Of a DNA stretch of 64,000 nt, positions 7,736 through 35,979 are shown one piece after another. Source of the stretch: Propionibacteriaceae bacterium (GTDB taxonomy: Bacteria > Actinomycetota > Actinomycetes > Propionibacteriales > Propionibacteriaceae); NCBI GenBank assembly GCA_031272505.1, contig JAISTQ010000051.1, forward strand, positions 1-64,000. The letters are read 5' to 3'. The notes beneath the pieces are model-generated. The model saw nothing but the letters and a program-made list of their open reading frames with translations, made no database searches and was not told the origin of the DNA. The translations under genes and the position numbers were made by a program. The first letter of the stretch is position 1. Each line of letters starts with the position of its first letter.

Positions 7736-10700
7736 ATGATGAGTCTGAAGAAGCTGACCGCCGGGTCCGGCTATGACTATTTGACGCGCCAGGTGGCGGC
7801 GATGGACTCGACGGAGAAGGGCCACACCAGCTTGCACGATTACTATGCGCAGAAGGGCGAGCTGCCAGGAAGGTGGATCGGCGCGGGGATGGAAGGCGTC
7901 GAAGGGCTGGAAGCGGGAGATCCGGTGACCGCCGAGCAGATGAGGAACCTGTTCGGATATGGTGAGCATCCGCTGGCCGACGAGCGGGTCCTGGAGGTGG
8001 ATTTCACTGGGATTGAGAAGCAGATCGGCGAGGGCAAAGGGATTCTGCCCGTCAAGTCGAAGTGGGAGCAGCGGATCGCTGAAGCGCGCCACTTGGGCAA
8101 ACCCTACTATGTGTACGACAATGACGTGAGCGACTACCGGATCGAAGTCGCCCGCCGGCTGCAGGCGGCGAACCGGGCGGAAGGCAAGCCGGCCCGCGCT
8201 GAAACCCCGATAGAGGAACGGGCGAGGGTCCGCAACGAGGTCGCCACCGAGTGGTTCATCAAGCAGCATCGGCGGCCGCCGCTTGATGAGCGTGAGCTGC
8301 ACGGTTTCATCGCCGAACAGTCACGGCAGAAGACCAGCGCGGTCGCCGGATTTGATCTCACTTTCTCGCCGGTGAAGAGCGTTTCGACGTTGTGGGCGGT
8401 CAGCTCGGAGCCGACCAGGCTGGCCATCCAAAGGGCGCACGACCGGGCGGTTGAAGCCACGCTGGCCTACATTGAAAGGGAGGCGCTGTTCACCCGTTCG
8501 GGCACGAACGGCACGAAGATCGAGCGTCCCAAAGGGCTGGTCGCGGCGGCGTTCACCCACCGTGACAGCCGGGCCGGGGACCCGGATCTGCACACGCATG
8601 TGGTGGTGGCGAACAAGGTGGAGATCAAGGACGAGAAAGGGAAAAGCAAATGGTTGACGATCCACGGGTCGGTCCTGTATCGGGCGGCGGTGAGCGCGTC
8701 GGAGTACTACAACACGATGCTGGAAAAGCATCTCGCGGCCTCGCTCGGATTGCGGTTCTATGAGGTGCCCAAAGGTGTCGGGAAACGGGTGGTGCGGGAG
8801 GTTGAAGGCGTCCCGCCGGAACTGTTGGCGGCCTGGTCTTCGCGGGCGAACGACATCAAGAACCGGAAATCTGAACTGGTGGCGGACTTCCGTGCGAAAG
8901 CGGGAAGGCCGCCGACGCCGGTAGAGATGATCAAGCTGGCGCAGGTCGCCACCTTGCAGACCCGGCAACGCAAACACGAGCCGCGCTCGCTCGCCGAGCA
9001 GCTGATCCGGTGGAAGGCGGAGGCGCAGGCGGTGCTGGGCACCTACGAGGCGGTCACCAACGTGGAAGAGAACGCCCTCCACGCCCCATTCCGGGTGGCG
9101 GACGACACACCTATTCCTGTCGGGCACGCCGCCAAGCTGGTCGAGAATGTCTTCGAGGCTGTGCAGGCGAAGTCCGCCACCTGGGGAGTTTTCACCATCC
9201 GGGCCGAGGCGGAACGGCAGATCCGGGAAGCGAACCTGGCCCCGTTCTTCACCGTGAACAACCTTGAAGGTGTGGTCAACCGGGTGCAGCAAAAGTGCGT
9301 CCCGATCAGCTTCGATCCTGACGAAGACAGCAATCTGGTGGACGCCGGAAGGGTGGAACCGAAGGCGGTGGGCGGCAGGTACACGTCGCAGCAGATATTG
9401 AACGCCGAGATGCGGCTCATCGCCCATGCGGGCCGGCCCGGCGGGCGGGCCGCGTCGGATTTGCACATCAACCTGGCGTTCGCCGAAGCTTACGCGAACC
9501 AGGTGGTGTTGAATCCGGGACAGCAAGAGCTGGTCCGGCAGATGGCCGCCAGCGGCCGGAGGCTGCAGTTGGGGTTGGCCCCGGCAGGGTCGGGGAAGAC
9601 GACCGCGATGGGAGTGTTGACGTCCGCGTGGCAGAACAGCGGCGGGAACGTGATCGGGCTGGCACCCTCAGCGGAGGCCGCCGAAGTGCTCCAAAGCGAG
9701 ATCGGCTGCTACTCCGAGACGCTGGCGAAACTCGACTTCGAAACCAGATCTGGCAACCCGGCGTTCCTTCCCAGGCAGTTCCGCAGCATCGGCCCGGACA
9801 CTTTGGCGATCATCGACGAGGCTGGGATGGCGGACACGCTCACCCTTGACCGGGCCGTGAACTGGCTGCTCTCCAGAGGTGCGACCGTGCGGCTGATCGG
9901 CGACACCCAACAGCTTGCCGCCGTCGGCGCAGGCGGGGTTTTGCGTGACATCCAAGCCACCCACGGGGCGGTCAACCTGACCGAGCTGGTGCGGTTCTCC
10001 AGCACCACCGAGGCCGCCGCGACCATCGCTCTGCGCGAAGGTGACGCGAACGCGCTCGGCTACTATTTCGACCACCAAAGGATCCACATCGGCGACGAGA
10101 CCGGAATGTGCGACGCCGTGTTCGACGGGTGGCGGGCCGACAGGGAAGCCGGGCTGGACTCGATCATGGTCGCCCACTCCCACCAGCAGGTGGCCGAGCT
10201 GAACCAGCGGGCCCGCACCCTGCGGCTAGCAGACGAAGCGACGCAGACCGGCGAGCAGGTGTCGCTGAGTGACGGAAACCAAGCGTCGGCAGGTGACACC
10301 ATCATCAGCCGCCGCAACGCCCGGAAGCTCGCCACCAGCAGCACCGACTGGGTGAAAAACGGCGACAAGTGGACGGTCCTCGAAGCGTACCCAGACGGTC
10401 GGCTGAAAGTGCGGCGCAACTCCAGCCGGGCCGGCGGACAGGCAGTGGTGATACTGCCTGCCGACTATGTGGCCGAACATGTCACCTTGGGGTATGCGAC
10501 CACCGTGCACACCGCCCAAGGGGTCACCGCGGACACCATGCACGGGCTGGTCGGCGGCCTGGAAACCCGCCAGTTGTTCTACACGATGATGACCCGGGGC
10601 CGTGACGCGAACCACGCCTATGTGACCCTTACCGGCGACGGTGATGCCCACTCGGCCATCTATCCCGAGGTGCTCCGGCCGCTCACCGCCACCGACGTGC

Positions 10701-13276
10701 TGGAACAGATTCTGAACCGTGACCAGCCGGCCACTAGCGCCACCACCCAACAAAGACAAGCGAAAGACCCGCGCAAACTGCTCAAAGAGGCGTGCGACCG
10801 CTACCACGACACCCTATTTAAAGGTGTACAGACACGGCTGTCGGAGACGGACGAACGGGCGATCATCGACGCCACCGAGACCTTGTTCCCTGGGGTCACC
10901 TACGACGACGCCTGGCCGGCGCTGGCCAACCAGCTCTACTATGCGTACATCGACGGAAGAGACCCGATCCAACTGCTGTTGGACGCCGCCGACCTGGGGC
11001 CGACAGATGACGCCGAGAACCTGACCAAGCTGCTCACTTGGCGCACCGCCACCCTGAACCAGACCGGCGGCGGGCCGCTGCCGTGGCTGCCCGCCATCCC
11101 CGAACAGCTCCGCGACCGGGGAGACACCGCGAAAGAACTCGAAGAACGCCACCAGCAGATCGTCAAGCTCGCCGCCCAGATCGGCACCAGCGCCGACGGC
11201 GACACTGCGGAACCCATCTGGGTGAAAAACAACGGCCTGAAACTCCCCCCGTCGCTCACCCGGCAGATCGAAATCTACCGGGCCGGAATCGGCCTCCCCA
11301 AAGACGAGGCCCGCCCGTTGGGGGAGCCGCCTGAAGACGCCGGCGCGCGAATCTGGCGGAAACAACTCAACAAAAAACTCACCCAGCACGCCTCCCCGGC
11401 AGTCGGAATGTGGCTGCCGCTGCTCCAATCTGTTAGCGCGGACGCCGCCAGAGACGAATTCGCGCCCGCCATCTGCCAACGGCTCGCCCACCTATCCTCC
11501 ATCGGAATCGACATCCGCGAACTGCTGGAAGAAGCCACCGCCACTCCCCTGCCGGACCATCACGCGGCAGGAGCACTGTGGTGGCGGATCGTGGATCTGC
11601 TGCCCGAGCACACCCTAGAAGAAACCGGGCCCCGCCACGACGCCGAAACAGTGTGGCTGCCCAAACTCACCCAGGCGCTCGGCCAAACCCACACGGATTC
11701 GCTCACCAACTCCACCTGGTGGCCCGCCCTCTCCGCCACCATCGAACGGGCCCTGGAATGCGGCAACACCATCGGACAGATCAGCGAAGAACTCACCCAG
11801 GCCGCCACCCGCATCACCGAAGACGCCGCCATCGGAGCCCTCACCCGGCTTTCCCACCTCACCGAACAAAGCCACGAAGACCCAGACGAGAAAACCGACC
11901 CGTGGCAAGACCACCACCACGACGACATTGAGGCCATCCCGTTCAACGACCAAGAACCCGAAGCGTATGAAGAAGAACCGACACCCGGCTTCGCAGACAC
12001 CGCCGCCGCCCGCGCCAGAATCTACGCGGCAAATGTGCAACCGCCGACCATCGAAACGCAAACCGAAAACCTGCCGGCCGATCTGGATCGGCTCGCCGAG
12101 ATCAACGAAATGGCGGCCAGCTTCTATGAGGCGCAATATCGGGCCAGTTGGGCCAGCCCGTACCTGAAAGAAAGGTGCGGCGGCATCGACCTGGCCGGCC
12201 ACCCCTACTATCGTCCCGGATATGCGCCCGCCAGTTGGGACGCGCTGCTGACGCATCTGCGCACGCAAGGAGTCAACGACGAAGAAATGATCCGGGCTGG
12301 CCTGGCCAAACGCGCCGAAACCGGAAGGCTCCGCGACGTGTTCGTGGACCGGCTAGTCCTGCCCGTCACCCACGACGGGAAGACCCTCGGCTTCACCGCC
12401 CGCCGCAACCCCGCCTACACGGACGACGACCACCGGGGCCCGAAATACCTCAACACCGCCGACACTCCCCTGTTCGCCAAAGGACAGCAGCTTTACGGTA
12501 CCGACCCCGCCCAAAAATATGCGACACCTGTGCTCGTCGAGGGTGCCCTCGACGCCATCGCCGTCACCGTCGCTTCCGACAACGCGCCAGTGGGCAGCTT
12601 CTACGGGGTCGCACCGCTCGGATCGGCGCTCACCCTCGCCCAAACCAGACAGCTCGCAAACCTGCCCGGAGGTGGCCAGGCCGTCATCGCGACCGACGCC
12701 GACCAGCCCGGAAAAGCCGCCGCGATGCGCGCCTACTGGCTGCTGTCCGCCCTCGGCATCACCCCCAAATATGCGCCCCTCCAAGACGCGAAAGACCCCG
12801 GCGAATATGTGCAGTCAGGACATGGGAACCAGCTCGCCGCCGAACTGTTCCTCGCCGCCGACTACCCCGACACCATCCTCAAAACCCTCACCGGCTGGGA
12901 CGACCAGCCGGACCCGAAACTATTCCACATCGCCCACCTGCTCGCCGTCAACCTCGCCGCCGCCGCCCCACCCGAACACTGGGAGAGGCTCGGCAGGCAG
13001 ATCGCCAACCAATTCGACTTCAGCGCGGAACTCACCCTCGAAGAGATCAGCATCGCCGCCGAAAAATGGAACCGCGACCCCGCCGCGCAGACCCGCGAAC
13101 ACCTCGCCAACACCCGCCACTACATCGAACACACCCAAAAGATGTCGCCGGTAAAGAATGATATGCTTTCGTTCATGGCCAGCATTCTCAACCCGGCCCC
13201 CGACCCGCAGCCCCCCGCCGCCGCGCCGGCCGAGGAACAGCCACAACCCGAACCAAACCACACCCCCCGCGTATGA
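7736..13276 (+). CDS. traA: MobF relaxase-helicase fused to a DnaG-like primase (TraA type)
   Basis: An 1846-residue conjugative relaxase. Residues 1-330 are a TrwC domain: tyrosines in GSGYDYLTRQVAAMD (12-25) and the metal site DPDLHTHVVVANKV near 285. A TraI-type helicase follows, with Walker A PAGSGKTT (about 617), Walker B AIIDEAGM (about 691) and HTAQGVT (about 925). The C-terminal third (about 1445-1720) resembles the DnaG catalytic core: a primase N-terminal subdomain (PYLKERCGGIDL, VFVDRLVLPV, GPKYLNT), then TOPRIM with LVEGALDAI (about 1599) and IATDADQPGKAA (about 1651). It would nick oriT, unwind the strand and prime complementary synthesis in the recipient. It precedes the prepilin peptidase gene with a 4-base overlap. 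The start is ATG 7736 (or 7739) after AGGGAGA. Confidence 0.93.
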   Translation: MMSLKKLTAGSGYDYLTRQVAAMDSTEKGHTSLHDYYAQKGELPGRWIGAGMEGVEGLEAGDPVTAEQMRNLFGYGEHPLADERVLEVDFTGIEKQIGEGKGILPVKSKWEQRIAEARHLGKPYYVYDNDVSDYRIEVARRLQAANRAEGKPARAETPIEERARVRNEVATEWFIKQHRRPPLDERELHGFIAEQSRQKTSAVAGFDLTFSPVKSVSTLWAVSSEPTRLAIQRAHDRAVEATLAYIEREALFTRSGTNGTKIERPKGLVAAAFTHRDSRAGDPDLHTHVVVANKVEIKDEKGKSKWLTIHGSVLYRAAVSASEYYNTMLEKHLAASLGLRFYEVPKGVGKRVVREVEGVPPELLAAWSSRANDIKNRKSELVADFRAKAGRPPTPVEMIKLAQVATLQTRQRKHEPRSLAEQLIRWKAEAQAVLGTYEAVTNVEENALHAPFRVADDTPIPVGHAAKLVENVFEAVQAKSATWGVFTIRAEAERQIREANLAPFFTVNNLEGVVNRVQQKCVPISFDPDEDSNLVDAGRVEPKAVGGRYTSQQILNAEMRLIAHAGRPGGRAASDLHINLAFAEAYANQVVLNPGQQELVRQMAASGRRLQLGLAPAGSGKTTAMGVLTSAWQNSGGNVIGLAPSAEAAEVLQSEIGCYSETLAKLDFETRSGNPAFLPRQFRSIGPDTLAIIDEAGMADTLTLDRAVNWLLSRGATVRLIGDTQQLAAVGAGGVLRDIQATHGAVNLTELVRFSSTTEAAATIALREGDANALGYYFDHQRIHIGDETGMCDAVFDGWRADREAGLDSIMVAHSHQQVAELNQRARTLRLADEATQTGEQVSLSDGNQASAGDTIISRRNARKLATSSTDWVKNGDKWTVLEAYPDGRLKVRRNSSRAGGQAVVILPADYVAEHVTLGYATTVHTAQGVTADTMHGLVGGLETRQLFYTMMTRGRDANHAYVTLTGDGDAHSAIYPEVLRPLTATDVLEQILNRDQPATSATTQQRQAKDPRKLLKEACDRYHDTLFKGVQTRLSETDERAIIDATETLFPGVTYDDAWPALANQLYYAYIDGRDPIQLLLDAADLGPTDDAENLTKLLTWRTATLNQTGGGPLPWLPAIPEQLRDRGDTAKELEERHQQIVKLAAQIGTSADGDTAEPIWVKNNGLKLPPSLTRQIEIYRAGIGLPKDEARPLGEPPEDAGARIWRKQLNKKLTQHASPAVGMWLPLLQSVSADAARDEFAPAICQRLAHLSSIGIDIRELLEEATATPLPDHHAAGALWWRIVDLLPEHTLEETGPRHDAETVWLPKLTQALGQTHTDSLTNSTWWPALSATIERALECGNTIGQISEELTQAATRITEDAAIGALTRLSHLTEQSHEDPDEKTDPWQDHHHDDIEAIPFNDQEPEAYEEEPTPGFADTAAARARIYAANVQPPTIETQTENLPADLDRLAEINEMAASFYEAQYRASWASPYLKERCGGIDLAGHPYYRPGYAPASWDALLTHLRTQGVNDEEMIRAGLAKRAETGRLRDVFVDRLVLPVTHDGKTLGFTARRNPAYTDDDHRGPKYLNTADTPLFAKGQQLYGTDPAQKYATPVLVEGALDAIAVTVASDNAPVGSFYGVAPLGSALTLAQTRQLANLPGGGQAVIATDADQPGKAAAMRAYWLLSALGITPKYAPLQDAKDPGEYVQSGHGNQLAAELFLAADYPDTILKTLTGWDDQPDPKLFHIAHLLAVNLAAAAPPEHWERLGRQIANQFDFSAELTLEEISIAAEKWNRDPAAQTREHLANTRHYIEHTQKMSPVKNDMLSFMASILNPAPDPQPPAAAPAEEQPQPEPNHTPRV

Positions 13277-14276: not shown

Positions 14277-15144
14277 CGTCGGTCGTTTCTTGTGGCAGGT
14301 CTTCTATGTCTGCGGCATCGACGAACCGTGGCTTGCCCAGTGGTCCTTCGGGCAGCTCAAAGTATACGTCTTCATCTGGGTAGACCATCTGCACGTCTAG
14401 CTCCTGTTCGATAGCGGCCGGGCTGGCCGCACCGGCTTCAACCACCATCATATCACCATTTACCGATGACATATTTTCGGCGTGTCGTACGATCTCGCCG
14501 GTCTGCCGGTCCACGCCTCCCGCAGGAACGCTGATGGTGTAGCTGCCCTCGATCGGCAACACGGCGATCAGCGGGGTGAGGGTTTGGACGTCCCGCTGGA
14601 ACAGCTCGGCCCTTTCGGCGCGCAAATCCATGTGGACGTTGTAGCTGGCGGCGGCGGGCCATTTCTGGTGGTGTTCGCGGCAGTGCCGTTTCACACGTTC
14701 TGCCATCCGGCTGATGAACCCGTTCAGCGAGTAGCGCACCCATGCCTCCAGATTGTTCGAGTTCGGATCGAGTTGGGCGCGACGACGTTGGTCGGCGAGC
14801 AGCGCGATGTCGTGCACCAGGTGCGGATGGTGCGGCCAGCATGGCGGGATCAGCCCATAGTCCGGATCCCACACATATTCGTGGTTGTACCAATCGACGA
14901 CCTTCTCCAGCCAAGCGTAGAGTTCGGCGCGCAACGCCGGAGACGTGCAGCTCGGCGGATCGTAGGGTTTAGGCAGCCCTGCCGGGTCGCCGATCCGTTT
15001 CTTCCTTTCGGCCTGCGCCCTGCCGATCAGCGTGCGGGTGTCCGGATTCCTCTCGAACAGCGCCAAATCTGAGAACGCCAGGCACAGCTCCGGCGTTTCC
15101 GGCATCGGAAACGGCCACGCCAGCCACTCTTCATAATCCGCCAT
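14263..15144 (-). CDS. Conserved hypothetical protein of actinobacterial conjugative elements
   Basis: A 293-residue soluble protein. A conserved-looking core at about 60-140 (LRAELYAWLEKVVDWYNHEY, then CWPHHPHLVHDIALLADQRR, then FISRMAERVKRHCREHHQKW) resembles DUF4913-type proteins carried beside relaxase and coupling genes in actinobacteria. The C-terminal part (about 225-293) is acidic and probably disordered. Its ATG overlaps the stop of the coupling protein gene. No catalytic motif is visible; a relaxosome accessory role is a guess from context. Confidence 0.65.
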   Translation of the reverse strand: MADYEEWLAWPFPMPETPELCLAFSDLALFERNPDTRTLIGRAQAERKKRIGDPAGLPKPYDPPSCTSPALRAELYAWLEKVVDWYNHEYVWDPDYGLIPPCWPHHPHLVHDIALLADQRRRAQLDPNSNNLEAWVRYSLNGFISRMAERVKRHCREHHQKWPAAASYNVHMDLRAERAELFQRDVQTLTPLIAVLPIEGSYTISVPAGGVDRQTGEIVRHAENMSSVNGDMMVVEAGAASPAAIEQELDVQMVYPDEDVYFELPEGPLGKPRFVDAADIEDLPQETTDDEPE

Positions 15145-16649
15145 CAGATCAAACCCACCTTTCTGGCCTTCTCCACCACCTGCAGACCAAACTGGTCGTT
15201 CTTCTCAGCTTGTCGGCTGTGCAGTTGCTCGCGCAGCGCCTCCTGCTGCGCCAACAGTTCCTTTCCGGTGTTCCCTTCGACGCAGCGTTGCAGCTTGGCC
15301 AGCATCGGCGAGGCGTTGCCGGCCAACACCAGCGCCTGCCGGGTGGGAATCTGCCGGATCTCTTCTGGCCGCAGAATCGGAATGTCCTCGGCGGTAGCCG
15401 TCACCCCGCCCTCCAGCTTCAACTGCTTGCTGGTCCGCGCCACCCGCACCGACCCAACCAAATCGGACACCTCTTTGTTGTACTCGGCGTCCTTCGAGCC
15501 GCCGAAGATCACCAGCACGTTCGACAGCGCCCAAATCGACTTCGCCTCCTGGTCGCCGAAAATCGCCGAAAGCTGCCGCCGGGTCTGCGCCGCCCACAGG
15601 AAGCTGATCCCCAACGCCCGCTCGTTCGCCATCCGGGTCCGCAGCGTCGGTATCGGAGCCGTCGAGGGCAGCTCGTCCAGGCAGGCGAGCATCGGCGGGC
15701 ACAGCTTCCGGTACGGGCTCTGGTTGCCCACCTCCAAGGCGGTATCGAGAATATGCTCGGTAAGCGCGGTCATCAGCGGCGACGCGGACTGGTAGGGGTC
15801 CTCTCGGCCCAGCATGAAGAAGGTGCCGCCCTCGCGGATGATCCGGGCGATGTCGGTGGCCTGCTTCCCCGGCGAAGGCACGCAACGGTTCAGGATCGAA
15901 GGCTGCATGAACAGGCTCATAGCTTGTTGCAAAGTGGTGATCGTGTTCGAGACCGTCCGTTCATCACCGTGCAGCGCCCCCTCCAGCAGGTTGAACCACA
16001 TCGGCGCGGCATCCGGATGCGCCTTGAGGATGTCAAACGGATGGTTCGCGCCCAACGGATTCGCCACCCACGGCAGCACCTTCGCCAGATTCGCGCCGAT
16101 CAGCGCGGCGGCGTGCAGATACGCCATCAGCACCTTCGCGGACTCCGAAGCATAAAACCGGGCGGCAGCATCCGACCCTCCGCCGCTGTTCGCCTTGATG
16201 GTGCCCGCCGTGAACGCCTTCGCGCGTTTCTCCGCGACCATCGGATCGGCACAGCCGGCCACCGGATCCCACACCAGCTCGTCCAAACCTTCCACCAGCC
16301 CGAAAGGGTCACACACCAAAGCGGGCCGTTCCGGCCCGCCCGGAAACCTCGGCGCTTTACGCGCCTGGTACACCAACAACAGATCATCCGGTTTCGTCAA
16401 CGTCACCAAAGCCGCACCGGGCGCGCCCAACAAGGCCGGAAACAGCAAATCCAGGCTCTTGCCGGAGCCTTGCGGGCCGATGATTCCGGCGCACATGTCA
16501 TACGGGCACCACAGGTCGCCCGCCCTCGGTTCCCAACACTGGCCGACCCGCCAGCCGACCTCTGTTGGCTCAAACCCGGCCTTCAACTTCCTGCCGCCCA
16601 CATGTTCTCCAATCTCCGCTAGACGCCCGCCATCGCCGGTTTGCCCCAA
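15144..16649 (-). CDS. Type IV coupling protein ATPase domain (VirD4/TraG), without membrane anchor
   Basis: A 501-residue ATPase of the VirD4 family. Walker A is IIGPQGSGKSLDLLF (58-65 core), followed by ALVTLTKPDDLL and LVCDPFGLVEG; later landmarks are FMLGREDP, LACLDELPSTAPIPTL (Walker B region) and LGISFLWAAQTRRQLSAIFG. Coupling proteins bring the relaxase-DNA complex to the secretion channel. This one begins directly with the segment that normally follows the transmembrane N-terminus, and has no membrane span of its own. The gene at 29128-29565 looks like the missing N-terminal half. The start overlaps the preceding gene by 31 bases. Confidence 0.9.
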   Translation of the reverse strand: MGQTGDGGRLAEIGEHVGGRKLKAGFEPTEVGWRVGQCWEPRAGDLWCPYDMCAGIIGPQGSGKSLDLLFPALLGAPGAALVTLTKPDDLLLVYQARKAPRFPGGPERPALVCDPFGLVEGLDELVWDPVAGCADPMVAEKRAKAFTAGTIKANSGGGSDAAARFYASESAKVLMAYLHAAALIGANLAKVLPWVANPLGANHPFDILKAHPDAAPMWFNLLEGALHGDERTVSNTITTLQQAMSLFMQPSILNRCVPSPGKQATDIARIIREGGTFFMLGREDPYQSASPLMTALTEHILDTALEVGNQSPYRKLCPPMLACLDELPSTAPIPTLRTRMANERALGISFLWAAQTRRQLSAIFGDQEAKSIWALSNVLVIFGGSKDAEYNKEVSDLVGSVRVARTSKQLKLEGGVTATAEDIPILRPEEIRQIPTRQALVLAGNASPMLAKLQRCVEGNTGKELLAQQEALREQLHSRQAEKNDQFGLQVVEKARKVGLI

Positions 16650-26479: not shown

Positions 26480-26523
26480 CGGGCCAGATGGCGCTAAATC
26501 CTCCTGGCTTGCCGGTCGGAAAG

Positions 26524-26913
26524 CTACGCCAAGGTGAGCAGCCTCGCCACCATCGGCCGCCTTGGATCTGCCGCGTAGTGCTCCAGGTTGCCCGGATCGT
26601 CCGGGTCGTCCTTCGCCATCTCCTCCCGCCAGGTGTTCGCCTGCTCCACCACCTCCGCCAGCAGCTCTTCGGGCTTCACCTTCCACTTCTTCGCTATCGC
26701 CTCCAGCAGCACCTCCGGCGGGGCCGTCTGCTCCAAGCCCAGATCCATCACCGTGAACAACAGATTGTCCGCCAGATGGTTCGAATAGTGATAGAGGCTC
26801 ATCGCCCCCATGTACTCGCCCAGCGCATCCAGATACGGATTGTCCTCCTCCTCTTCTTCTTCCGGATACGGATAATCCTCGTCCTCGTCCACTATCTCCA
26901 AGTGCTCGCCCAT
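26524..26913 (-). CDS. Acidic hypothetical protein (129 residues)
   Basis: Starts at ATG 26913 after GAGGAGGAACAGC. The N-terminus is extremely acidic (IVDEDEDYPYPEEEEEEDN), followed by helices (YHYSNHLADNLLFTVMDLGL, then PPEVLLEAIAKKWKVKPEEL). Such acidic proteins next to methyltransferase-helicase genes could be DNA mimics or chaperones, but no family is recognised. It overlaps another open frame, that of the large fusion protein, which argues that the fusion starts downstream of it. It is the gene immediately before the fusion in the P6 operon. Confidence 0.7.
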   Translation of the reverse strand: MGEHLEIVDEDEDYPYPEEEEEEDNPYLDALGEYMGAMSLYHYSNHLADNLLFTVMDLGLEQTAPPEVLLEAIAKKWKVKPEELLAEVVEQANTWREEMAKDDPDDPGNLEHYAADPRRPMVARLLTLA

Positions 26914-26985
26914 GCTGTTCCTCCTCCGCTTCGGCCAGCCAATCCAACAACGACGGCTGGAACACAGTTCTGTTCTGCCTCGCCA

Positions 26986-27084
26986 TTAGCCTATCCAAAT
27001 CTCAAGCCGAAAAAACCGCCCGGCGTGTCGCCCTGCCACCGGACAGCCCACGATCAGCAAAGACTCGAAAGGATTTCTCTTCAT
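26986..27084 (-). CDS. Possible leaderless leader frame of the P6 operon (32 residues)
   Basis: An ATG lies five bases after the TTTTCT hexamer of P6. The 32-codon frame ends in TAA that overlaps a following ATG (TAATG at 26986), the start of a frame beginning MARQNRTVFQPSLLDW that later runs into the acidic protein gene. The peptide includes AGRHAGRFF over the conserved GCGACACGCC. Evidence is positional. Confidence 0.4.
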   Translation of the reverse strand: MKRNPFESLLIVGCPVAGRHAGRFFRLEIWIG

Positions 27085-27922: not shown

Positions 27923-28948
27923 TCAGATGGTTGGAGGGGCGCGGTGTCGGGTGGGATGTTCGTCTTCGATGGATGGCACTGCGGCCGTGACGTCAGTGTC
28001 GATGTTTACGGTTGGGGCCATCTGGGCGGTGATCTCTTTGGCCCATTCGAGGCTGGGCGGCGTGGTGTGTTCGAGGATTTTGTCGGCGGCATCGACGACC
28101 CGGTTGGCGGTCTCCTGGACTACCTCTTCGAGGGTGCGCCCGTTGGTGGCCGCCGAGGTGGCCCAGCCGGACACGTAGGAGAACGTGTATTGGGCGGAGT
28201 CCAGGCCGTGCGCCTGGGTGACGATGTAGGCCACCGATTCGGCTTCCACTTCGGCGACGCCCCGGCAGCGCAAACCTGGCGTCTTATAGCCTTCCGGGTG
28301 CAGCAGCATGTGGCCGACCTCGTGCGCAAGGGTTTTCACCGCCTGCGCGTCATCTATATCGTCGCGGACCCGGATGTGTTTCTCTTCATGGTTGGTGTAT
28401 CCGTTCGCTTCGCCGCAGTCGCCCCGGTCCACCGTGTGGCCGTGCTGGCTGGCGAACTCGACCATGGCGTCCCACAATCCTTCCGGTGCTTGGCCTTCGA
28501 GCAGCTCGGGGGCTGGCGGGCGCACGACGGGAGGTTCGACTTGGCTGCCGTCGAAAACGTGCACGATCTTGAACAGCATCTTTTTGAGCGGTTCTCCGGT
28601 TTCCGGGTCGATCTCCGGGTCGGCACCAGGCTGAGGTCGGACTTTGACGAGCATCGGCGCGAACACGGCGATACCTTTCTCGCCTTTGCGCACCTGGTGG
28701 CCTACCTCGGCCCACCGGTTGTAGGAGTGGACGATGGCGGCGTGTGGGCATTGCAGCGAGATCAGCAGCCGGTTGTTCGGCGAGTACTGGTGCATCCGCG
28801 ACTGGAAGCCCAGGAACCGCTGCCACGCCTCCGCGTCGTCGAACGACAGCAGCTGCTGATGCAGCGAGGATTGCAACTGTTCCACTTTTTCGCGCCGAGC
28901 ACGCTGCCAGTTGCTCTTCTGCGCGGGAGTGAAGGGTTTGCGGCTCAT
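27923..28948 (-). CDS. ardC: ArdC-type antirestriction protein (ssDNA-binding, zincin-like)
   Basis: A 341-residue protein. The N-terminal domain (about 1-130) has the ArdC single-strand DNA-binding pattern: FTPAQKSNWQRARREKVEQL, MHQYSPNNRLLISLQCPHA, WAEVGHQVRKGEKGIAVFAP. The C-terminal domain contains VKTLAHEVGHMLLHPE (about 205), an HExxH zinc site, and a downstream Glu in GVAEVEAESVAYIV. ArdC-type proteins protect the incoming single strand during conjugation; the zinc domain role is not settled. The start ATG 28948 overlaps the stop of a 53-residue gene (ATGA), so the two are coupled. It is embedded in the secretion operon. Confidence 0.9.
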   Translation of the reverse strand: MSRKPFTPAQKSNWQRARREKVEQLQSSLHQQLLSFDDAEAWQRFLGFQSRMHQYSPNNRLLISLQCPHAAIVHSYNRWAEVGHQVRKGEKGIAVFAPMLVKVRPQPGADPEIDPETGEPLKKMLFKIVHVFDGSQVEPPVVRPPAPELLEGQAPEGLWDAMVEFASQHGHTVDRGDCGEANGYTNHEEKHIRVRDDIDDAQAVKTLAHEVGHMLLHPEGYKTPGLRCRGVAEVEAESVAYIVTQAHGLDSAQYTFSYVSGWATSAATNGRTLEEVVQETANRVVDAADKILEHTTPPSLEWAKEITAQMAPTVNIDTDVTAAVPSIEDEHPTRHRAPPTI

Positions 28949-29106
28949 GTCTGCTGCGCCCACTTTCGCACCTGGTCAAGATCGACGAGCAGTTCGGCTT
29001 CCGCATCAAGGTCGCCTTCGGCGGCGATCTCTTCGAGTTGTTCTTCGAGAGCTTGCTCCATCAGCGGCAGGTCGCGCGGATCGATCCCTTCGGGTATCTG
29101 GTCCAT
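28945..29106 (-). CDS. Small acidic protein coupled to ardC (53 residues)
   Basis: Starts with ATG 29106 after GAAGGAAACCAAA and ends in TGA overlapping the ardC ATG. The product is strongly acidic: MDQIPEGIDPRDLPLME, then repeated Glu-rich helices (QALEEQLEEIAAEGD; EAELLVDLDQVRKW). Net charge and size recall DNA-mimic antirestriction proteins, but there is no family match; it could equally be an ardC translation coupler. Confidence 0.6.
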   Translation of the reverse strand: MDQIPEGIDPRDLPLMEQALEEQLEEIAAEGDLDAEAELLVDLDQVRKWAQQT

Positions 29107-29127: not shown

Positions 29128-29565
29128 TTAGGTGTAGAGGTCGGGTCGGATGATCCTTCGTTGGGAGAACAGGCGTTGCTCTCCGAGTGCTTCTGCGGCA
29201 TCGCGCGGTGTCGCCATGCCTTTCATCCTGCCGGGGCCGAACCGGTGCAGCAGCAGCACCAGCACCACTATCGACCCGGCCAGGGCCAGTATTTCCATGA
29301 TGGCGAGCCACGTCCACACGGCTATGCGGCTGGCGGCCGGATGGGCGATGTCGAGGCCGGCGGCGGCGTCCCCGGCGAAAATACCGGGCAGGGAGGTGAA
29401 CAGGTTCGCGCTGGCCGGCCAAGTGATGCCCGCGCCGGCGAACAGGTTCGCCAGCAGGCGGCCGGTTTGGGCGGCGAGCACAGCGACGAGCAGGTAGGCG
29501 AGGATGCCACCCAGGGCGGGCTCCCACGTCCACGGGTACGGGTTTTTCCGATGTTCGATCTGCAC
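29128..29565 (-). CDS. Membrane protein resembling a VirD4 N-terminal domain (145 residues)
   Basis: Two hydrophobic spans (ILAYLLVAVLAAQTGRLLAN; WLAIMEILALAGSIVVLVLL) with an external loop between, then a cytoplasmic tail GPGRMKGMATPRDAAEALGE and a final RRIIRPDLY. This is the topology and tail of the N-terminal part of actinobacterial VirD4-like coupling proteins, which is absent from the ATPase at 15144-16649. I infer that the coupling protein is split into two genes 12 kb apart. It overlaps nothing but is only 3 bases from the next gene, so it belongs to the secretion operon. An unrelated small channel component is the alternative. Confidence 0.6.
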   Translation of the reverse strand: MQIEHRKNPYPWTWEPALGGILAYLLVAVLAAQTGRLLANLFAGAGITWPASANLFTSLPGIFAGDAAAGLDIAHPAASRIAVWTWLAIMEILALAGSIVVLVLLLHRFGPGRMKGMATPRDAAEALGEQRLFSQRRIIRPDLYT

Positions 29566-29568
29566 CGG

Positions 29569-31221
29569 CTACTCCTCTTCTTCTTTTTCTTGTTTGGGAA
29601 TGTCGTCCATGTTCGGGGTGACGGAAAGGTGCACATGGTCAAGATGCCGGTCTGAACGCGAACAGGCTTGCACGCTGGCACAGTTCGGGCTCTTGTAGTC
29701 TTTCCAGGACTTCATGCCTGGGCTCCAATGTTTATCCGCCCAGATCACTTGGGTGACGCCCAACTCTTTCGCGTACTTCTGCACCCATTTGGCGACCTTC
29801 CAGCCGTCCGTGCGGCCCTGCTCGGAGTCGTTGTCTTTGATTGAGTTATCGACCGCGTTCCCGTCGCAATGGTTTGAATGGTAGTTGCCGGTGCCGTTGC
29901 ATGTCGGATGGGACGCGGCCCTTCTGCCGCCTTGATATGTGACGGTCTCCGGGAAGTATTGTTTGACGCACCTGGCGACCCGCAGCGAGGGCGGATTCAA
30001 GTTCAGCCGTTTCTCGGTGTCGGCGGGCAGCGGAGCGCAGTCGCCGCCGAGGAACGCGGGCAGATCCGGGCTGGAGTCGCAGCCTTTGAGGATCACATCG
30101 GAAACAACCGGGAAATGGTCCGACGGGTAGATGCCGCGAATCATGTGCACGTTCGAGCCGTTGACCATCGTGGTGTAGTGGTTCCCTTCCGGCCCCAGAT
30201 ACACTTGCCAGTTGATCACCTCGAAGGCTTTGTTCACATAGATGTTGTCGATGCTGCTTCCGGCCCGCACCCCCTTGTATACGGTTTCGCCGCCCACCTT
30301 CATTCCGAAACCGTTGAACGACGCGGCCCGCTGGAACAGGCCGATGTTCGTGCCTTCCTCAGCAGCGTCCAGCCAGGTGTCGTAGGGCATGTATTTTTTG
30401 ATCTCGGAAGGCGAGGAGTTGAAGTCGCCGAGCATGATGGTGGCCGCCCACATGCCCGAGTTGATCTTCTCCAATCCTTCGAACAGCCGCTTGTAGCCGG
30501 CTTTCCGGGCTTTCTCGGCCGCCTCGGGGTCGTCCAGGCCGGCTTGGGTGTGCACGTTCACGACGAACCAGATCCGTTCCACGTTGTCTTTGAGTTTCAC
30601 CCAGGTGGCATACCTGTTATCGACCGCGCCGTCCTCCCCGGCGGTGTTCAGCCGGATCACCCCTTTGTCTTTGAGTTCCGGGAATTTCTCGCGGTTCCAC
30701 ACGATCGGCTGCGCCCGCCCTTCCTTGTCCGGTGTCCACGAATCCCAGCCGCCCAGGAACATGATCCGCAGCACATCGTACAGTTGAGGGGTTTTCGAGT
30801 CGTCGTCGCTGGTGCTGCTGTTCGTTTTGTCGCCCGATTGGTTCTCCTGGAAGCCGACCAGATCCGGTTTCGCTTCCAGCACATAGGTGGCGACCGCGTT
30901 CCCCCGGCCTTTGTGCTCGTCGTCAACCTGGGTCCACGAATAGTCATCCTCATGGTCTTCCATGCCGGCCTCCTCGGCGGTGTACGACACCCCTTTCACG
31001 TTGAAACTCATCACCCTCGCCGTCCAGTTACAGCCTGCGCTCTCGGTGGTGTTCGCCACCCCGCCGGTGAGGAACCCGAGCAGGATGATCACGGCGAACG
31101 GCATCAGAAACATCGGCAGTATCACCAGGCAGCCGACGCCGGCCTTCGCCATCAGCCATTTGTTCACCTGCCGTTTGGCGGCAGCTTTCCCAACCTGCTT
31201 CGCCTTGTCTGACATTCCCAT
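29569..31221 (-). CDS. Membrane-anchored DNase I-like domain fused to a peptidoglycan hydrolase-like domain
   Basis: A 550-residue protein. One span at 27-53 anchors it. Residues 66-380 are an endonuclease/exonuclease/phosphatase domain with the family residues in order: MSFNVKG (71-77), GFQENQ (123-128), NVHTQ (222-226), LGDFNSS (264-270), SDHFPVVSD (367-375). Residues about 410-536 match the ARB_07466-type peptidase domain often attached to cell-wall enzymes: GNYHSNHCDGNAVDN (445-459), GWKVAKWVQKYAKELGVTQV, HLDHVHLSV (526-534). In secretion operons this place is usually taken by a wall-opening enzyme, so the second domain fits; a surface-exposed nuclease in the same polypeptide is unexpected. 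Acidic tail EKEEEE. Confidence 0.88.
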   Translation of the reverse strand: MGMSDKAKQVGKAAAKRQVNKWLMAKAGVGCLVILPMFLMPFAVIILLGFLTGGVANTTESAGCNWTARVMSFNVKGVSYTAEEAGMEDHEDDYSWTQVDDEHKGRGNAVATYVLEAKPDLVGFQENQSGDKTNSSTSDDDSKTPQLYDVLRIMFLGGWDSWTPDKEGRAQPIVWNREKFPELKDKGVIRLNTAGEDGAVDNRYATWVKLKDNVERIWFVVNVHTQAGLDDPEAAEKARKAGYKRLFEGLEKINSGMWAATIMLGDFNSSPSEIKKYMPYDTWLDAAEEGTNIGLFQRAASFNGFGMKVGGETVYKGVRAGSSIDNIYVNKAFEVINWQVYLGPEGNHYTTMVNGSNVHMIRGIYPSDHFPVVSDVILKGCDSSPDLPAFLGGDCAPLPADTEKRLNLNPPSLRVARCVKQYFPETVTYQGGRRAASHPTCNGTGNYHSNHCDGNAVDNSIKDNDSEQGRTDGWKVAKWVQKYAKELGVTQVIWADKHWSPGMKSWKDYKSPNCASVQACSRSDRHLDHVHLSVTPNMDDIPKQEKEEEE

Positions 31222-31230: not shown

Positions 31231-32733
31231 CTATGCTGCGGCCTCTAGCGCGTCTTGCGTCCAAGTCAACTGCTCTTCGACCGGATGCAGGATCGTCTTG
31301 ACTTTGAAGTAGCGTTCCCCGGCGATCCAAAGGGCGCGGCCCTTCTCCTGGCGGCACCAGCCGGTCACCAGTTGCTGCGCCATCGGGTTGATGCCGAGCA
31401 GCTCGCCAAGCTGGTTCGCGACCTCTTGGTCCTGGCCGAGCAGGATCTTCGTATCCGCCAAATGGAACATGTCTTTGGCGATCTGCACCGCCTGCGAGCC
31501 CGCATCGCCCACACTCAAAAAGTCTGATGGTTTGTGCGCTATCGCCATCTGAATGTCGCCGTCGCGGCGCGAAAGCCGCAAATCCGCGTCGAAGCTCTTC
31601 ACCGCGTCAATACCCAACCGGAACTGCCGCCAACACTCGTCGCGTACCACCACCCGCATGTCGCCCGGCTCGGACAGTTCCCGCATCGCCCGCGCCCACG
31701 AGTTCAGGCACAGCAGCGCCATGCCGGTCGCCTCGTCACCCAAACCCTCCAGGCGGGAAAGCGACAGGGAAGCTATCGGGGCCATCCAATCCAAATCGAT
31801 GGTCGTCGGCCCGTCGAACAGGCCGGCCAGCGCACCTTGGAACATTTCCGCCAAAGCGTCCCGCAACGCCCTAGTGTCATCCCAGAAATGCTGGCTGGAC
31901 GAGTATCGGCACTCCTCGATCATCTGCTGCGGCGGGCTGTTCAGGCACTGCCACAGCTCGGGGATGGTCGTCACCCGCAAGCTGGAGGCCCCTTGGGCGA
32001 AGCCGGTCACCTGCTTCAACGCCGAATCGACCACCTTCGCTTCGGTTGGCCCGAACGGCACCCCTTGAGAGCCGACCATTCCCCTGATCAAAGTCAGCCA
32101 GCGGGCGAACACGATGTCGCAGCGGCGCTTCTGCTCCGCCACACTCAACTGTTCCCAGCCTTGGCCGAGCGGCCCGAAATCCAGCGGGTTGATCCGGTTC
32201 GCCAAGCCTTGCCCGATTGCGATCGGTTCCACCTGGAAGAACCGGCACAGCTTCTCGTACTCGTCTTTCGGATCGCCGACCACCAGGCAGCGGTAGCCGA
32301 ACGCGGCCATCCGGATGATGAACGCCTTCACGGTGGCGGACTTGCCCATGCCTGGCTTGCCCAACACCATCACGTTCGGGTTGGAAACCGGCATGTCGTC
32401 GTCCATCACCCAGCCGTTCGGATCGCAATAGAACGCCCCGCCGGAGAAATAGTCCACGCCCATCTGCGCGCCGTGCGGCTTCAACCCTGGAGCGGAAATG
32501 AACGGCCAAAAGATCGCCGCCTGGTCCGACGTCATCTGGTACACCTCCGGCGGGACCTTTCCCGGCTGCCAGCCGCAATACGGGCGCAGCACGTTCTTCT
32601 GCGGGGCGAACAGGCGCGGCTCCTTCGTTTCCGGCGGCGGCGGCGTCACCTTCGGCAGCTCATGGCCGAAATCCGCCAACAGCCGATCCACACTCCGGCC
32701 TTGGGTGTCCGCCCGTCTCTGCTTGCCCATCAC
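31231..32733 (-). CDS. Type IV secretion ATPase, VirB4-like
   Basis: A 500-residue ATPase with Walker A VMVLGKPGMGKSATVKAF (core 125-132), the following strand RCLVVGDPKDEYEKL, and a C-terminal region VVRDECWRQF...VKSFDADLRLSRRDGDIQMA typical of VirB4/TraC proteins in actinobacteria (conserved acidic residue before the arginine-rich segment, then IAHKPSDF). It would energise assembly of the channel and transfer. No membrane span. It lies 9 bases before the fusion nuclease gene and 12 after the SCO6880-family gene. Confidence 0.9.
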   Translation of the reverse strand: MMGKQRRADTQGRSVDRLLADFGHELPKVTPPPPETKEPRLFAPQKNVLRPYCGWQPGKVPPEVYQMTSDQAAIFWPFISAPGLKPHGAQMGVDYFSGGAFYCDPNGWVMDDDMPVSNPNVMVLGKPGMGKSATVKAFIIRMAAFGYRCLVVGDPKDEYEKLCRFFQVEPIAIGQGLANRINPLDFGPLGQGWEQLSVAEQKRRCDIVFARWLTLIRGMVGSQGVPFGPTEAKVVDSALKQVTGFAQGASSLRVTTIPELWQCLNSPPQQMIEECRYSSSQHFWDDTRALRDALAEMFQGALAGLFDGPTTIDLDWMAPIASLSLSRLEGLGDEATGMALLCLNSWARAMRELSEPGDMRVVVRDECWRQFRLGIDAVKSFDADLRLSRRDGDIQMAIAHKPSDFLSVGDAGSQAVQIAKDMFHLADTKILLGQDQEVANQLGELLGINPMAQQLVTGWCRQEKGRALWIAGERYFKVKTILHPVEEQLTWTQDALEAAA

Positions 32734-32745: not shown

Positions 32746-34254
32746 CTAGTTCAGTTTCTTGGTGTTCACCAGCGACAGTCCCAACGGGACCACCGACGCG
32801 AAAAACGCATGATCTTGAGATAAATCCACCGGCAACGGGGCGAACCCCGAGTTGCGGATCGACGCGTGCAGCCGCTGGGAGAACTCGGCGATGCTCATCG
32901 TCCTTGGTACCGTCACCGTCGCCAAAGCATAGGGGCGCACCATCGCGTTGCCCGAATCGAGCTTCTCATCCAAGCGGCGGGTCCGGCCCACCTGCTTTCG
33001 TTCCGAAGCGCGCATCTTCCGGCCCATCTTCTCGTTGATCGCCTCCGCCATATCGGCCGTCGCTTCTTTTTTGCGGGTGAGTTTCTGCGCTTTGTCGAAA
33101 CTCATGATCGGATAGCCGACCAGCAGGCTGCGCCGCTCTCCGGCCTCCTGCGGCATCAACACCGGGGCGAGCGCGCCCATCACCGCGCCCTTACCGGGAA
33201 GCCGGATCACATCCGAGGACGACCACCAGGCGTCATGCTCATAATGGCGGGCAGCGGAATGCGCGCCCGACGGGCCCGCCATCGGCCAAGGCACATCCGC
33301 GTTCACCTTCGGATCTTTGCTTTTGGCCACCCCGGCGGCCACCAGTTGGGCACGATCCCCCGGCGCGAACCCGGTGCGTACCGCGACAGCCAACTCCGGG
33401 GAAGTCAGCCAGCGGACAGTGTCCATCTGCAGGCCGGAGCGCAGCTTCGTCTCCATCTCCGCCAGCAGCATCACCATCGCCGACATGCGCCCCGCCATGC
33501 CCTTCCCGAAATGCTTCGCGTTCTTCTTCAACGCCGCCTCCGAAACCGTCACCGTGCAAAACGCCTCCGTCTGCACCGACGCCTGCGACACGATCTGCGC
33601 CAAACCCTCCGTCACATGCCGGGCCTGCGCCGGGGCCGCCGCCGAAAGATGCTCCAACAGATACTGGTGGCGTTCCTCGCCGTCATCCGGCACCGACCGC
33701 ACAATAAACAGAATCTCCTCCACCATCTCCGTCCGCGCCGCCGCGTTCAACAAATCCCGCAAACCATCCGCCAACAAAGCCCGCTCGGCGACATCGGCCA
33801 GTTTGATCCCCGGGAACGTGATCGCCGCTGTCGCCGCCCACGTCAAATTCGCATGGTTCTGGATGATGCCCACCCGGCGCTGCTGCGGGCCTTCCGGCGG
33901 ACCATCATGGACCTTCACCTGCTTCAACAAGCCCGGAAGATCCGCCTCCTCAATGTTCTCGCCCTCCATCGCCTTCGAACGGAACTCAGTCAGCTTCGAA
34001 GCCGACCCGGCCGAATGCGCAACAAACGTGGCCAGCCAGTTGATCGAGCTGCGGCCCCGGATCGGCACCGCGATCACCAGCGCGGCGGCCGCGAAAAGGA
34101 CCAACGTCCAACCGACCGCGCCCCAATCCGAACGCGAGACCGCCAACAGGCACGGCATCAACGCCACAAACAACCCAGCCAGCTTCGGGCCAGTCAACCC
34201 GAAAAACAGGCCGCTCTTATCTTTTTGGAACTCGCCATAAACCGCGACACTCAT
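32746..34254 (-). CDS. SCO6880-family type IV secretion protein
   Basis: A 502-residue protein with two N-terminal membrane spans (LTGPKLAGLFVALMPCLLAV; VGWTLVLFAAAALVIAVPIR) in a PrgI/VirB3-like arrangement, then a long soluble region. Landmarks are RRVGIIQNHANLTWAATAAI, DGEERHQYLLEHLSAAAPAQ and HDAWWSSSDVIRLPGK, as in SCO6880-type proteins that precede VirB4 in actinobacterial conjugation clusters and fuse VirB3-like and VirB4 N-terminal-like parts. Role in the channel is inferred from family context. Tight spacing on both sides. Confidence 0.85.
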   Translation of the reverse strand: MSVAVYGEFQKDKSGLFFGLTGPKLAGLFVALMPCLLAVSRSDWGAVGWTLVLFAAAALVIAVPIRGRSSINWLATFVAHSAGSASKLTEFRSKAMEGENIEEADLPGLLKQVKVHDGPPEGPQQRRVGIIQNHANLTWAATAAITFPGIKLADVAERALLADGLRDLLNAAARTEMVEEILFIVRSVPDDGEERHQYLLEHLSAAAPAQARHVTEGLAQIVSQASVQTEAFCTVTVSEAALKKNAKHFGKGMAGRMSAMVMLLAEMETKLRSGLQMDTVRWLTSPELAVAVRTGFAPGDRAQLVAAGVAKSKDPKVNADVPWPMAGPSGAHSAARHYEHDAWWSSSDVIRLPGKGAVMGALAPVLMPQEAGERRSLLVGYPIMSFDKAQKLTRKKEATADMAEAINEKMGRKMRASERKQVGRTRRLDEKLDSGNAMVRPYALATVTVPRTMSIAEFSQRLHASIRNSGFAPLPVDLSQDHAFFASVVPLGLSLVNTKKLN

Positions 34255-34272: not shown

Positions 34273-35979
34273 TTAGTTTCTTCTGCCACCATCAGGCCGC
34301 ACCGTCCTGCCGCCCGGGCTTGGCCGACCACCACCAGGTGTCTGCCCGCCCGAAGGCGGCCTCCGATCCGGCACCACGCCGCCACTCGGCGACGGCGGCA
34401 CACTCGCCGAACCCCCACCAGAAGGAGGCTGCGGCGCAGGCTTGCCGACTGTAGTCGGCTGCTGCGGCTCTGCCGCTAAAGGCTGCGGATCTGCGCCATC
34501 CGGCGAAGACACGGGGCTACCAGCAGTTTGGGATCCAGGCTGCGCTGGTTCCTGGTAGGTGCCGCCCGCATCGTACATGCCCTCCGTGTCGTACATCGGA
34601 TCGAACGGCGGTGTAGCGCCCGGCGGATCGTACACCGGATCCCCGCCACCAGCGGGACTTGAACCCGAGCTGAGGTTCTCGCGGACAGCCCTGCCTGTGT
34701 TCGCCGCCGCATGGCCGAACGTGCTCGCCGCCGATGTGACACTCGTCTGCGGATTACGATCTGGATACAGCGTGGTGCCACCCTTCTCATTTCCGACTCC
34801 GGCTTGGTTGAGCGCGTCGGTGGCAACCGCCGAAGCCTTCGCACTCACGCTTTTCACCTTGTCGCCGAATGCGTGCGCCAGCCCGGCTGCCGCGCCCAAT
34901 GTCGCACCCATGCCCATGCCCATCGCGCCACCTGCCCCACCCGAGGTGGCGTTCGAAAGCTGCCGGTCGGTGCCGGCCTCCGCCAACTGCTCACCTTGCG
35001 ACACCCCGTTCGCATCCGCAGACTGCGCCGCCGTCGAAGCGCCCTTCCCGCCGCCAGTAGCCGCGCTGGCCTTCTCGCCGAACATGCCCGTGCCGGTCAT
35101 CGCCGCCCGCAATTGCGCACCAGAAGACGTGGATGGGTCCACGAACGCCAACAGTTTGAACAGCGCCATCGGGGATATTGCCGCCACCAGCATTAGCCCG
35201 ATCCCAACAAAAGTCTGATCCAGAGCACTTTCCACTGTGGGTGTGCCGCCAGGCCAATCCTGTTTAGTGGTGAACTGGATGGCCAGGTGCTGGATAAACA
35301 GGATGAGCGGTTTGGCGAACACTGCCGCGTGGAACCAACGTAGGCTCTTCCAACACCAGCTAGAGGTTGATTCGTTTACCAAGCCTGCGGCACAGATGGG
35401 TGACGTGGCGACGATCACAACTATCGCCCCAGCCATCACGATCATGGTCACTAGATTTGTCAAACTGCCTAGAAGGACCAGCGGGCTGATCAACACCAAC
35501 ATGAACGCCTGGACCAAGTTGATTTTACTGGTCCAATCTGCGTCTGCTGTTACGGCAGCATTAGAATCCGAGGTTTCAATCCACAAAGACACGAACGTCC
35601 CATTGTCGCCGATCTCTTTGAGTAAACCGCTTGAGAGAATATTCGTGGCGTCAATCATCCCTTTGGCGTAGGCCATGAAAGCGACACAAAACAGCAAGAG
35701 CTTCCCAATTCCCCAAAGCAGCTCAGCCAGTGGTTTCCCGTTCTGTTGTTGCGCTGTCTTGCCTATCTGGACGATGGCCAAGATAACTGCGACACCTGAC
35801 GCGATCCAGACGGAGAACTCGGTGAAAGCGATCTGCTCGTCCAAGTTATCGGTCAAATTCAGCCCGAAACCCATTACTAGCTGATAGACGAACAGCACCG
35901 CCTTCCAGATCCCCATCAGTATTCCGGTAACCATGTTTTGAATGCCTTGCACACAGGCATCAACAATCGCTTCCCACAT
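34273..35979 (-). CDS. TrbL/VirB6-like polytopic membrane protein
   Basis: A 568-residue protein. The first ~280 residues hold at least six spans (for example MVTGILMGIWKAVLFVYQLV; LAELLWGIGKLLLFCVAFMA; LVTMIVMAGAIVVIVAT; FVGIGLMLVAAISPMALFKL), the layout of VirB6/TrbL channel proteins. The second half is Gly/Ser/Ala-rich and then Pro-rich and repetitive, likely disordered and cytoplasmic or surface exposed. Base composition in 35.2-35.9 kb is less GC-rich than its neighbours. It starts at ATG 35979, 3 bases after the VirB8-like gene, in the secretion operon. Confidence 0.85.
   Translation of the reverse strand: MWEAIVDACVQGIQNMVTGILMGIWKAVLFVYQLVMGFGLNLTDNLDEQIAFTEFSVWIASGVAVILAIVQIGKTAQQQNGKPLAELLWGIGKLLLFCVAFMAYAKGMIDATNILSSGLLKEIGDNGTFVSLWIETSDSNAAVTADADWTSKINLVQAFMLVLISPLVLLGSLTNLVTMIVMAGAIVVIVATSPICAAGLVNESTSSWCWKSLRWFHAAVFAKPLILFIQHLAIQFTTKQDWPGGTPTVESALDQTFVGIGLMLVAAISPMALFKLLAFVDPSTSSGAQLRAAMTGTGMFGEKASAATGGGKGASTAAQSADANGVSQGEQLAEAGTDRQLSNATSGGAGGAMGMGMGATLGAAAGLAHAFGDKVKSVSAKASAVATDALNQAGVGNEKGGTTLYPDRNPQTSVTSAASTFGHAAANTGRAVRENLSSGSSPAGGGDPVYDPPGATPPFDPMYDTEGMYDAGGTYQEPAQPGSQTAGSPVSSPDGADPQPLAAEPQQPTTVGKPAPQPPSGGGSASVPPSPSGGVVPDRRPPSGGQTPGGGRPSPGGRTVRPDGGRRN

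Follow-up and report, generated by a model that had tools for sequence, protein, structure and literature searches.

A recurrent EEP domain in T4SS wall hydrolases of the Propionibacteriaceae, possibly directed at phosphate-bearing wall polymers

To our knowledge, little is known about Gram-positive conjugation through a thick wall rich in phosphate polymers. PrgK of pCF10 and TraG of pIP501 are T4SS proteins that combine a membrane helix with several extracellular wall-hydrolase domains, and the portion of the source available to us treats their breaching of the wall for peptidoglycan only (PMC11323569). A further wall enzyme, VldE, cleaves the L-Ala/D-Glu bond; its catalytic zinc is held by H301, D308, and H375, with H370 as the base and H373 in the HxH motif, according to the accessible part of its description (PMC11667670).

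Here, we describe a protein of a Propionibacteriaceae bacterium that shares the architecture of PrgK and TraG, a membrane helix followed by an extracellular wall-hydrolase domain in a T4SS operon, and that also carries an endonuclease/exonuclease/phosphatase (EEP) domain. The window, by which we mean the whole stretch of DNA analyzed, covers the first 64 kb of a contig of 92,959 bases; the genome measures 2.23 Mb. What is new is that an EEP module recurs in T4SS wall hydrolases, where it replaces or joins the transglycosylase/lysozyme-like domain. Our literature search, a weak test of absence in print, found no description of EEP-wall-hydrolase fusions in T4SSs.

The protein and its conjugative element

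The gene lies 9 nt from the upstream ATPase gene and 3 nt from the downstream gene for a small membrane protein (Table 1). A relaxase, a coupling protein, and a VirB4-like ATPase are all encoded on one element, which on this gene content carries a conjugative T4SS, and transfer itself is predicted from the same genes. The first-pass annotation had placed the gene in a secretion operon, as its SCO6880-family and VirB4-like neighbors and the TrwC relaxase and coupling protein within the window confirm. The order SCO6880, ATPase, EEP-hydrolase, orf145 recurs at locus L026 in another genome, so the arrangement is not due to chance. Custom wall-hydrolase profiles, built from 2 to 11 sequences and with the profile "slt" representing only the lysozyme-like kind of loci L021 and L022, match just this gene within the 64-kb window, and a Pfam scan of 10 other window ORFs found no wall hydrolase among them. 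We assign the protein to a T4SS wall-hydrolase slot, given a gene in a T4SS operon whose product has a membrane anchor and a wall-hydrolase domain.

Table 1. Coordinates of the protein, its domains, and the transfer genes in the window
Feature	Position	Strand	Basis
TM-EEP-VldE-like protein	29569..31221	-	550 aa, ATG start, ORF call
Membrane helix, residues 28-52	31066..31140	-	hydrophobic stretch and charge count; predicted N-in; model helix 5-51
EEP domain, ~residues 65-380	30082..31029	-	PF03372; 3mpr Z 28.6; 4c1r Z 26.6; catalytic residues
VldE-like zinc L,D-endopeptidase domain, ~residues 385-539	29605..30069	-	profile 9flh; fold 9fln; H451, D458, H526, H529, H531
VirB4-like C-terminal ATPase, directly upstream	31231..32733	-	NF045975 5.3e-17, below its cut-off
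SCO6880-family T4SS protein	32746..34254	-	NF042935 6.5e-118
Polytopic membrane protein, putatively VirB6/TrbL-like, by look only	34273..35979	-	no family match
Conserved small membrane protein (orf145), downstream of the wall-hydrolase slot	29128..29565	-	L026 homologue in the same place, 37.8% identity
Coupling protein, TraG/TraD type	15144..16649	-	PF12696 5.1e-24
TrwC-type relaxase with helicase and primase/Toprim parts	7736..13276	+	PF08751 8.8e-81
ArdC-like antirestriction protein	27923..28963	-	PF08401 1.3e-9

By charge count, seven Lys/Arg residues and one Asp/Glu residue lie N-terminal to the helix, so the rest of the protein is predicted to face outward (N-in, C-out), which supports, as a prediction, the outward orientation proposed earlier. 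The earlier description of two domains with intact catalytic residues behind a single membrane anchor also holds, as all eight EEP positions and the peptidase zinc ligands are present. The AlphaFold model of the full protein has a mean pLDDT of 77, with the EEP core mostly at 80-95. A search with the full-length protein found no relative among the collected genome contigs. An assembly or frame artefact is ruled out as the origin of the fusion by the recurrence of EEP fusions with other partners at L026, L021, and L022.

Pfam gave no match to residues ~385-539. This region matches VldE both by profile (9flh, 8.2e-8) and by fold (9fln, Z 13.2, rmsd 1.9, 106 aligned residues); the peptidase-only model was built on 2 sequences with a pLDDT of 75.2, and the other four models reached 33 to 57. 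H451, D458, H526, H529, and H531 match the spacing of VldE H301, D308, H370, H373, and H375, which designates H451, D458, and H531 as the zinc ligands and H526 as the catalytic histidine of a VldE-type enzyme of clan MD. Judged by motif and model, the C-terminal domain is thus of the VldE type (L,D-endopeptidase, clan MD), and by analogy with VldE, it may cleave the L-Ala/D-Glu bond.

The window also contains several genes outside the transfer apparatus. A Cas12f-like protein is encoded at 159-1994(-) (PADLOC Cas12f 1.1e-158). Next to it, the contig end (1-91) has a 27-nt repeat in two identical copies, 64 nt apart, and the gene and repeats may mark the margin of a type V CRISPR array carried by the conjugative element. 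A cluster at 51456-56371(-) encodes a T2SSE-type ATPase (PF00437), a SAF-domain protein (PF08666), and two membrane proteins; it resembles a Tad/Flp pilus cluster, the Tad naming being by eye, and a surface pilus on the element is possible. A sortase is encoded nearby at 58041-58820. Two ORFs at 40540-44860(-) resemble parts of a type IIG-like restriction-modification enzyme (PADLOC 1.4e-25 and 1.5e-21). Within the transfer region, 21440-26998(-) encodes an 1852-aa methylase-helicase-like protein with weak DrmD/BrxH-like matches.

The EEP domain and its nearest relatives

Residues 72-369 match PF03372 with an E value of 5.9e-7 and 29.9 bits, above the curated Pfam cut-off of 24.5. The protein has all of the eight residues that we take to be the catalytic and metal positions of the EEP fold: N74, E126, H224, D266, N268, D325, D368, and H369. 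Each position is kept in 36 to 41 of 41 aligned EEPs, and all eight are intact at L026, L021, L022, L023, L025, and L033; at locus L043, the contig ends ahead of the last two.

The best match of the window EEP, by both profile and fold, is the Bt3783-like group, formed by Bt3783 itself (4c1r) with 3mpr, 3g6s, and 3l1w. An eight-row EEP profile searched against the PDB is led by 3mpr (3e-18), 4c1r (8.3e-18), 3l1w, and 3g6s, followed by nocturnin (8e-12) and then Angel2, CCR4-type proteins, and TDP2. A profile of T4SS EEPs only (E ≤ 10) again places 3mpr, 3g6s, 3l1w, and 4c1r on top, with TDP2 at 0.0023 and weak matches to CdtB (E 0.43) and exonuclease III (1.4-2.1). The fold search gives the same leaders (3mpr, Z 28.6 over 251 residues; 3g6s, 26.8; 4c1r, 26.6; 3l1w, 25.8), below which come nocturnin (24.6), CNOT6L (24.5), TDP2 (23.8), neutral sphingomyelinase (22.7), exonuclease III (19.6), and bacterial sphingomyelinases (19-20). 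DNase I is absent both from the PDB matches of the T4SS-only profile at E ≤ 10, which excludes nothing, and from the best 50 fold matches, where a missing row is likewise no exclusion.

The top relatives are 22-24% identical to the window EEP, so function is not readable from likeness. They point no less to small or sugar phosphates than to DNA, and kinship to the Bt3783 group makes sugar-phosphate phosphatase activity a candidate function that the domain may have. The domain had first been called DNase I-like and an outward-facing nuclease. The former name stands only at the level of the EEP superfamily, and the nearest relatives are the Bt3783 mannosyl-6-phosphatase group; the latter is unsupported as stated, with the Bt3783-like structures nearest and nocturnin, CNOT6L, and TDP2 after them. 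The observation itself is right, and its nuclease framing is one option but not the best supported. Since the nearest solved relatives are phosphatase-like, there may be no paradox of the kind raised for an outward-facing nuclease in DNA transfer.

EEP fusions across the family

To place the fusion among T4SS operons, as the first-pass annotation had proposed, we surveyed the slot beside the ATPase. The window ATPase was searched in 198 family genomes and matched in 94. Among 77 places listed at ≥50% ATPase identity (79 rows, two genes being split), 72 were viewed, with G182:C36, G182:C88, G115:C408, G017:C168, and G179:C11 left out (partial). Of these slots, 63/72 encode a wall hydrolase (VldE-like, NlpC/P60, and/or M23) without an EEP, 3/72 encode an EEP (the window, L026, and L043), and 6/72 have no hydrolase, in four cases because the contig ends within ~700 bases. 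Ten loci of a distant ATPase clade, checked among 71 listed rows, gave no match to the custom hydrolase profiles.

Pfam scans of ten proteins included eight slot proteins, of which six matched SLT/SLT_2 and one gave a weak SLT_3 (E 0.01); the remaining one, L066, is a peptidase alone. A transglycosylase/lysozyme-like domain thus occupies the position of the window EEP in 7/8, and the EEPs of the window and L026 occupy the SLT position of the other slot proteins. The survey accordingly identifies the EEP as taking the place of the transglycosylase domain in a T4SS wall hydrolase.

The EEP also occurs in a T4SS of a different type within the same genus. L021 (genome G012) encodes a 680-aa helix-EEP-lysozyme-like-NlpC/P60 protein, and L022 (G008) encodes a 667-aa helix-EEP-lysozyme-like-VldE-like protein, their lysozyme-like parts being so named because they resemble slot proteins in which SLT_3 matched weakly. 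Both have TcpF-like ATPases (NF052333, 1.8e-17 and 1.4e-15) and FtsK-like proteins as neighbors, and L022 additionally has a membrane protein resembling CD3337/EF1877 (1.6e-4) and a protein resembling TcpC (1.4e-5, just below cut-off) nearby. This T4SS type is present in 5/197 family genomes, and its slot protein has an EEP in 2/5; in the other three loci, the slot proteins are VldE-like with M23, or NlpC/P60, and have no EEP. Carried by wall hydrolases of both T4SS types and lacking at these three loci, the EEP is an exchangeable module. The FtsK-like conjugation protein of L022 (1984-5970(-)) contains LAGLIDADG/homing endonuclease matches (PF14528 and PF05204), and this insert is probably an intein.

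The partners of the EEP differ among these proteins: VldE-like in the window, NlpC/P60 at L026, lysozyme-like with NlpC at L021, lysozyme-like with VldE-like at L022, and M23 at L033. The last is a 598-aa fusion of M23 (1.2e-16) and EEP (2.1e-14) in the window's own genome, on contig C47 and outside any T4SS. Its M23 domain has HxxxD and is short of one histidine of HxH, so the domain may only bind. In another genus, G164 has a 5'-truncated remnant that retains the end of an EEP and a VldE-like domain; identity to L022 is 45% for the former and 57% for the latter.

Overall, 39 of the 41 EEP places in the family were examined (G020:C18 and G106:C367 were left out), and the EEP is joined to a wall hydrolase in 6/39, the G164 remnant included. 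Elsewhere, the EEP is paired with a tyrosine phosphatase or with repeats, of fibronectin type III or other kinds. At L032, the EEP encoded by 8206-10140(-) is joined to a tyrosine-phosphatase domain (PF13350 1.1e-24), giving a double phosphatase; no T4SS gene was matched nearby. An apparent integrase-EEP fusion at L035 (6533-8656(+)) was rejected. The match to the phage integrase profile reaches only position 50/172, and the complete EEP is preceded by a weak lipoprotein-like signal (E 0.16), so this is probably a run-in frame.

With the four T4SS EEPs as the query, matches were found in 1/394 genomes of the class at 1e-25 (the window's own), 25/391 of the order at 1e-18, and 24/198 of the family at 1e-20, 19 of which belong to the window's genus. 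Plasmid records searched by tblastn with the L021 EEP gave no match. The fusion is thus local to this family within this EEP subfamily, and fusions with other EEP subfamilies would escape detection. A tree of 24 EEPs groups the five T4SS-linked sequences with three stand-alone ones, L023-L025 (support 97/98). On this tree, the T4SS label requires two changes, which fits either a single recruitment followed by loss or two recruitments. The structure alignment excludes L136, L149, L152, L155, L159, L168, L171, and L172 (short or odd frames) and L150, L153, L154, and L170 (internal stop). The window EEP is divergent, with 25-37% identity to its relatives and a branch of 1.42, so its function or substrate may have drifted.

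Candidate substrates and comparison with known wall enzymes

We favor the reading that the protein is a wall-penetration enzyme of the T4SS in which a VldE-like peptidase is paired with an EEP acting on a phosphate-bearing wall polymer, and we give this reading as a whole a probability of about 0.45. A wall-hydrolase role in the T4SS is very probable. The EEP, with its residues intact, is predicted to be an active metal-dependent phosphoesterase, and a wall phosphoester as its substrate is a tentative proposal with chances slightly short of even. The EEP is tentatively assigned to the wall because its partners are exchanged among hydrolases, it takes the place of a transglycosylase, and its nearest named relative is a sugar phosphatase. 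In the proposed mechanism, the donor membrane would hold the enzyme through its single helix, and the VldE-like domain would cut the peptide stem of peptidoglycan. The EEP would most likely act on a teichoic-acid-like phosphodiester, a sugar phosphate, or the link between polymer and peptidoglycan, and by loosening or clearing the wall polymer, it would open a passage for the peptidase and the T4SS channel. If so, one step of breaching the wall would have a dedicated enzyme that could help to set host range by wall chemistry.

The host genome has 10 matches to PF04464 (six on contig C9), which we take to be a teichoic-acid polymerase family, and two to PF03816, presumably an LCP ligase family. 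On these matches, the host seems capable of teichoic acid synthesis, which could supply a substrate for the EEP. Across the family, PF04464 is present in 21/24 EEP genomes versus 50/174 others (Fisher 3.9e-8, kinship ignored). Within the genus, the association is not seen (17/19 versus 8/11, p 0.33), so the family-wide signal may be shared ancestry, and the idea that the EEP tracks teichoic-acid genes inside the genus is unsupported. PF04464 was unmatched at 1e-15 in G023, a 75% complete genome with a fused EEP, and the neighbors of the stand-alone EEPs at L023-L025, read by eye, are unlike wall genes. Also counting against a wall substrate, the enzymes ranking next after the Bt3783 group (nocturnin, CNOT6L, Angel2, and TDP2) act on nucleotides or nucleic acids.

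The main rival is an extracellular DNase displayed on the T4SS wall hydrolase, which would act near the donor surface against competing DNA or natural transformation. The available parts of two sources report that secreted DNases of mobile elements cut transformation by one to three orders of magnitude (PMC4774983) and that IdeA/SxnA are carried on ICEs (PMC7693049), and the window EEP would then be a membrane-tethered, machine-coupled form of such DNases. The superfamily includes nucleases, two of which (CdtB and exonuclease III) are weakly matched, but the nearest relatives are phosphatase-like and no DNase I sequence was matched at E ≤ 10. An anchored nuclease beside a DNA channel is also awkward, and anchored fusions with wall hydrolases, including L033 outside any T4SS, need no DNA substrate. 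We thus regard a DNase as unlikely.

A phosphatase acting on lipids or nucleotides, which had been raised at the outset, fits best among the earlier options as a phosphatase, but a wall substrate is preferred. An enzyme that hydrolyzes phosphoesters of lipids or nucleotides where donor and recipient meet (sphingomyelinase-, phosphoinositide-, or NADP-phosphatase-like) would agree with the nocturnin and sphingomyelinase folds; these rank under 3mpr and 4c1r by both fold and sequence, and the pairing with wall hydrolases would be left unexplained, which makes this proposal improbable. We attach similarly low odds to a non-catalytic or regulatory module. The free swapping of slot domains would suit such a role, as would the LytM and CHAP domains that restrain the PrgK muramidase in pCF10, on the evidence of the accessible text (PMC11323569). 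However, the window protein lacks an SLT domain that could be regulated, and the retention of 8/8 catalytic positions despite 25-37% identity to relatives argues against a dead EEP domain. A TrwC-type relaxase joins DNA via a tyrosine, and a TDP2-like activity that frees the 5' end of the transferred strand from the relaxase, for which the TDP2 matches and the relaxase on the element speak, is very improbable given that TDP2 ranks below the sugar phosphatase, that the EEP is predicted to face outward, and that it is also fused to M23 outside a T4SS.

Bt3783 (4c1r) is 24% identical to the window EEP across 246 residues, and its chain has no wall hydrolase; its mannosyl-6-phosphatase activity is taken from the PDB entry title, and a literature search for Bt3783 found no paper. 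The C-terminal domain of VldE (Spr1875) of S. pneumoniae shares the fold and the spacing of zinc and catalytic residues with the window peptidase at ~24% identity, but the latter has an insertion ahead of the first zinc histidine, and a T4SS link is absent from the portion of the VldE description available (PMC11667670). Among the best matches, proteins on Rhodococcus and Prescottella plasmids, annotated as M23 family metallopeptidases, have the C-terminal domain in common with the window protein; the matches start at ~residue 294-394 and leave the main EEP part unmatched. We tentatively propose that some conjugation wall enzymes form a class with a sugar-phosphate or teichoic-acid phosphoesterase in place of the muramidase or added to it, so that phosphate polymer and peptides would both be cut. 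PrgK and TraG, as described in the part of the source at hand, have no EEP domain (PMC11323569). The window protein, in turn, gives no match to an SLT or muramidase domain with either Pfam or the custom profiles; it fills the same slot as PrgK and TraG, yet it is not filed as PrgK/TraG-type.
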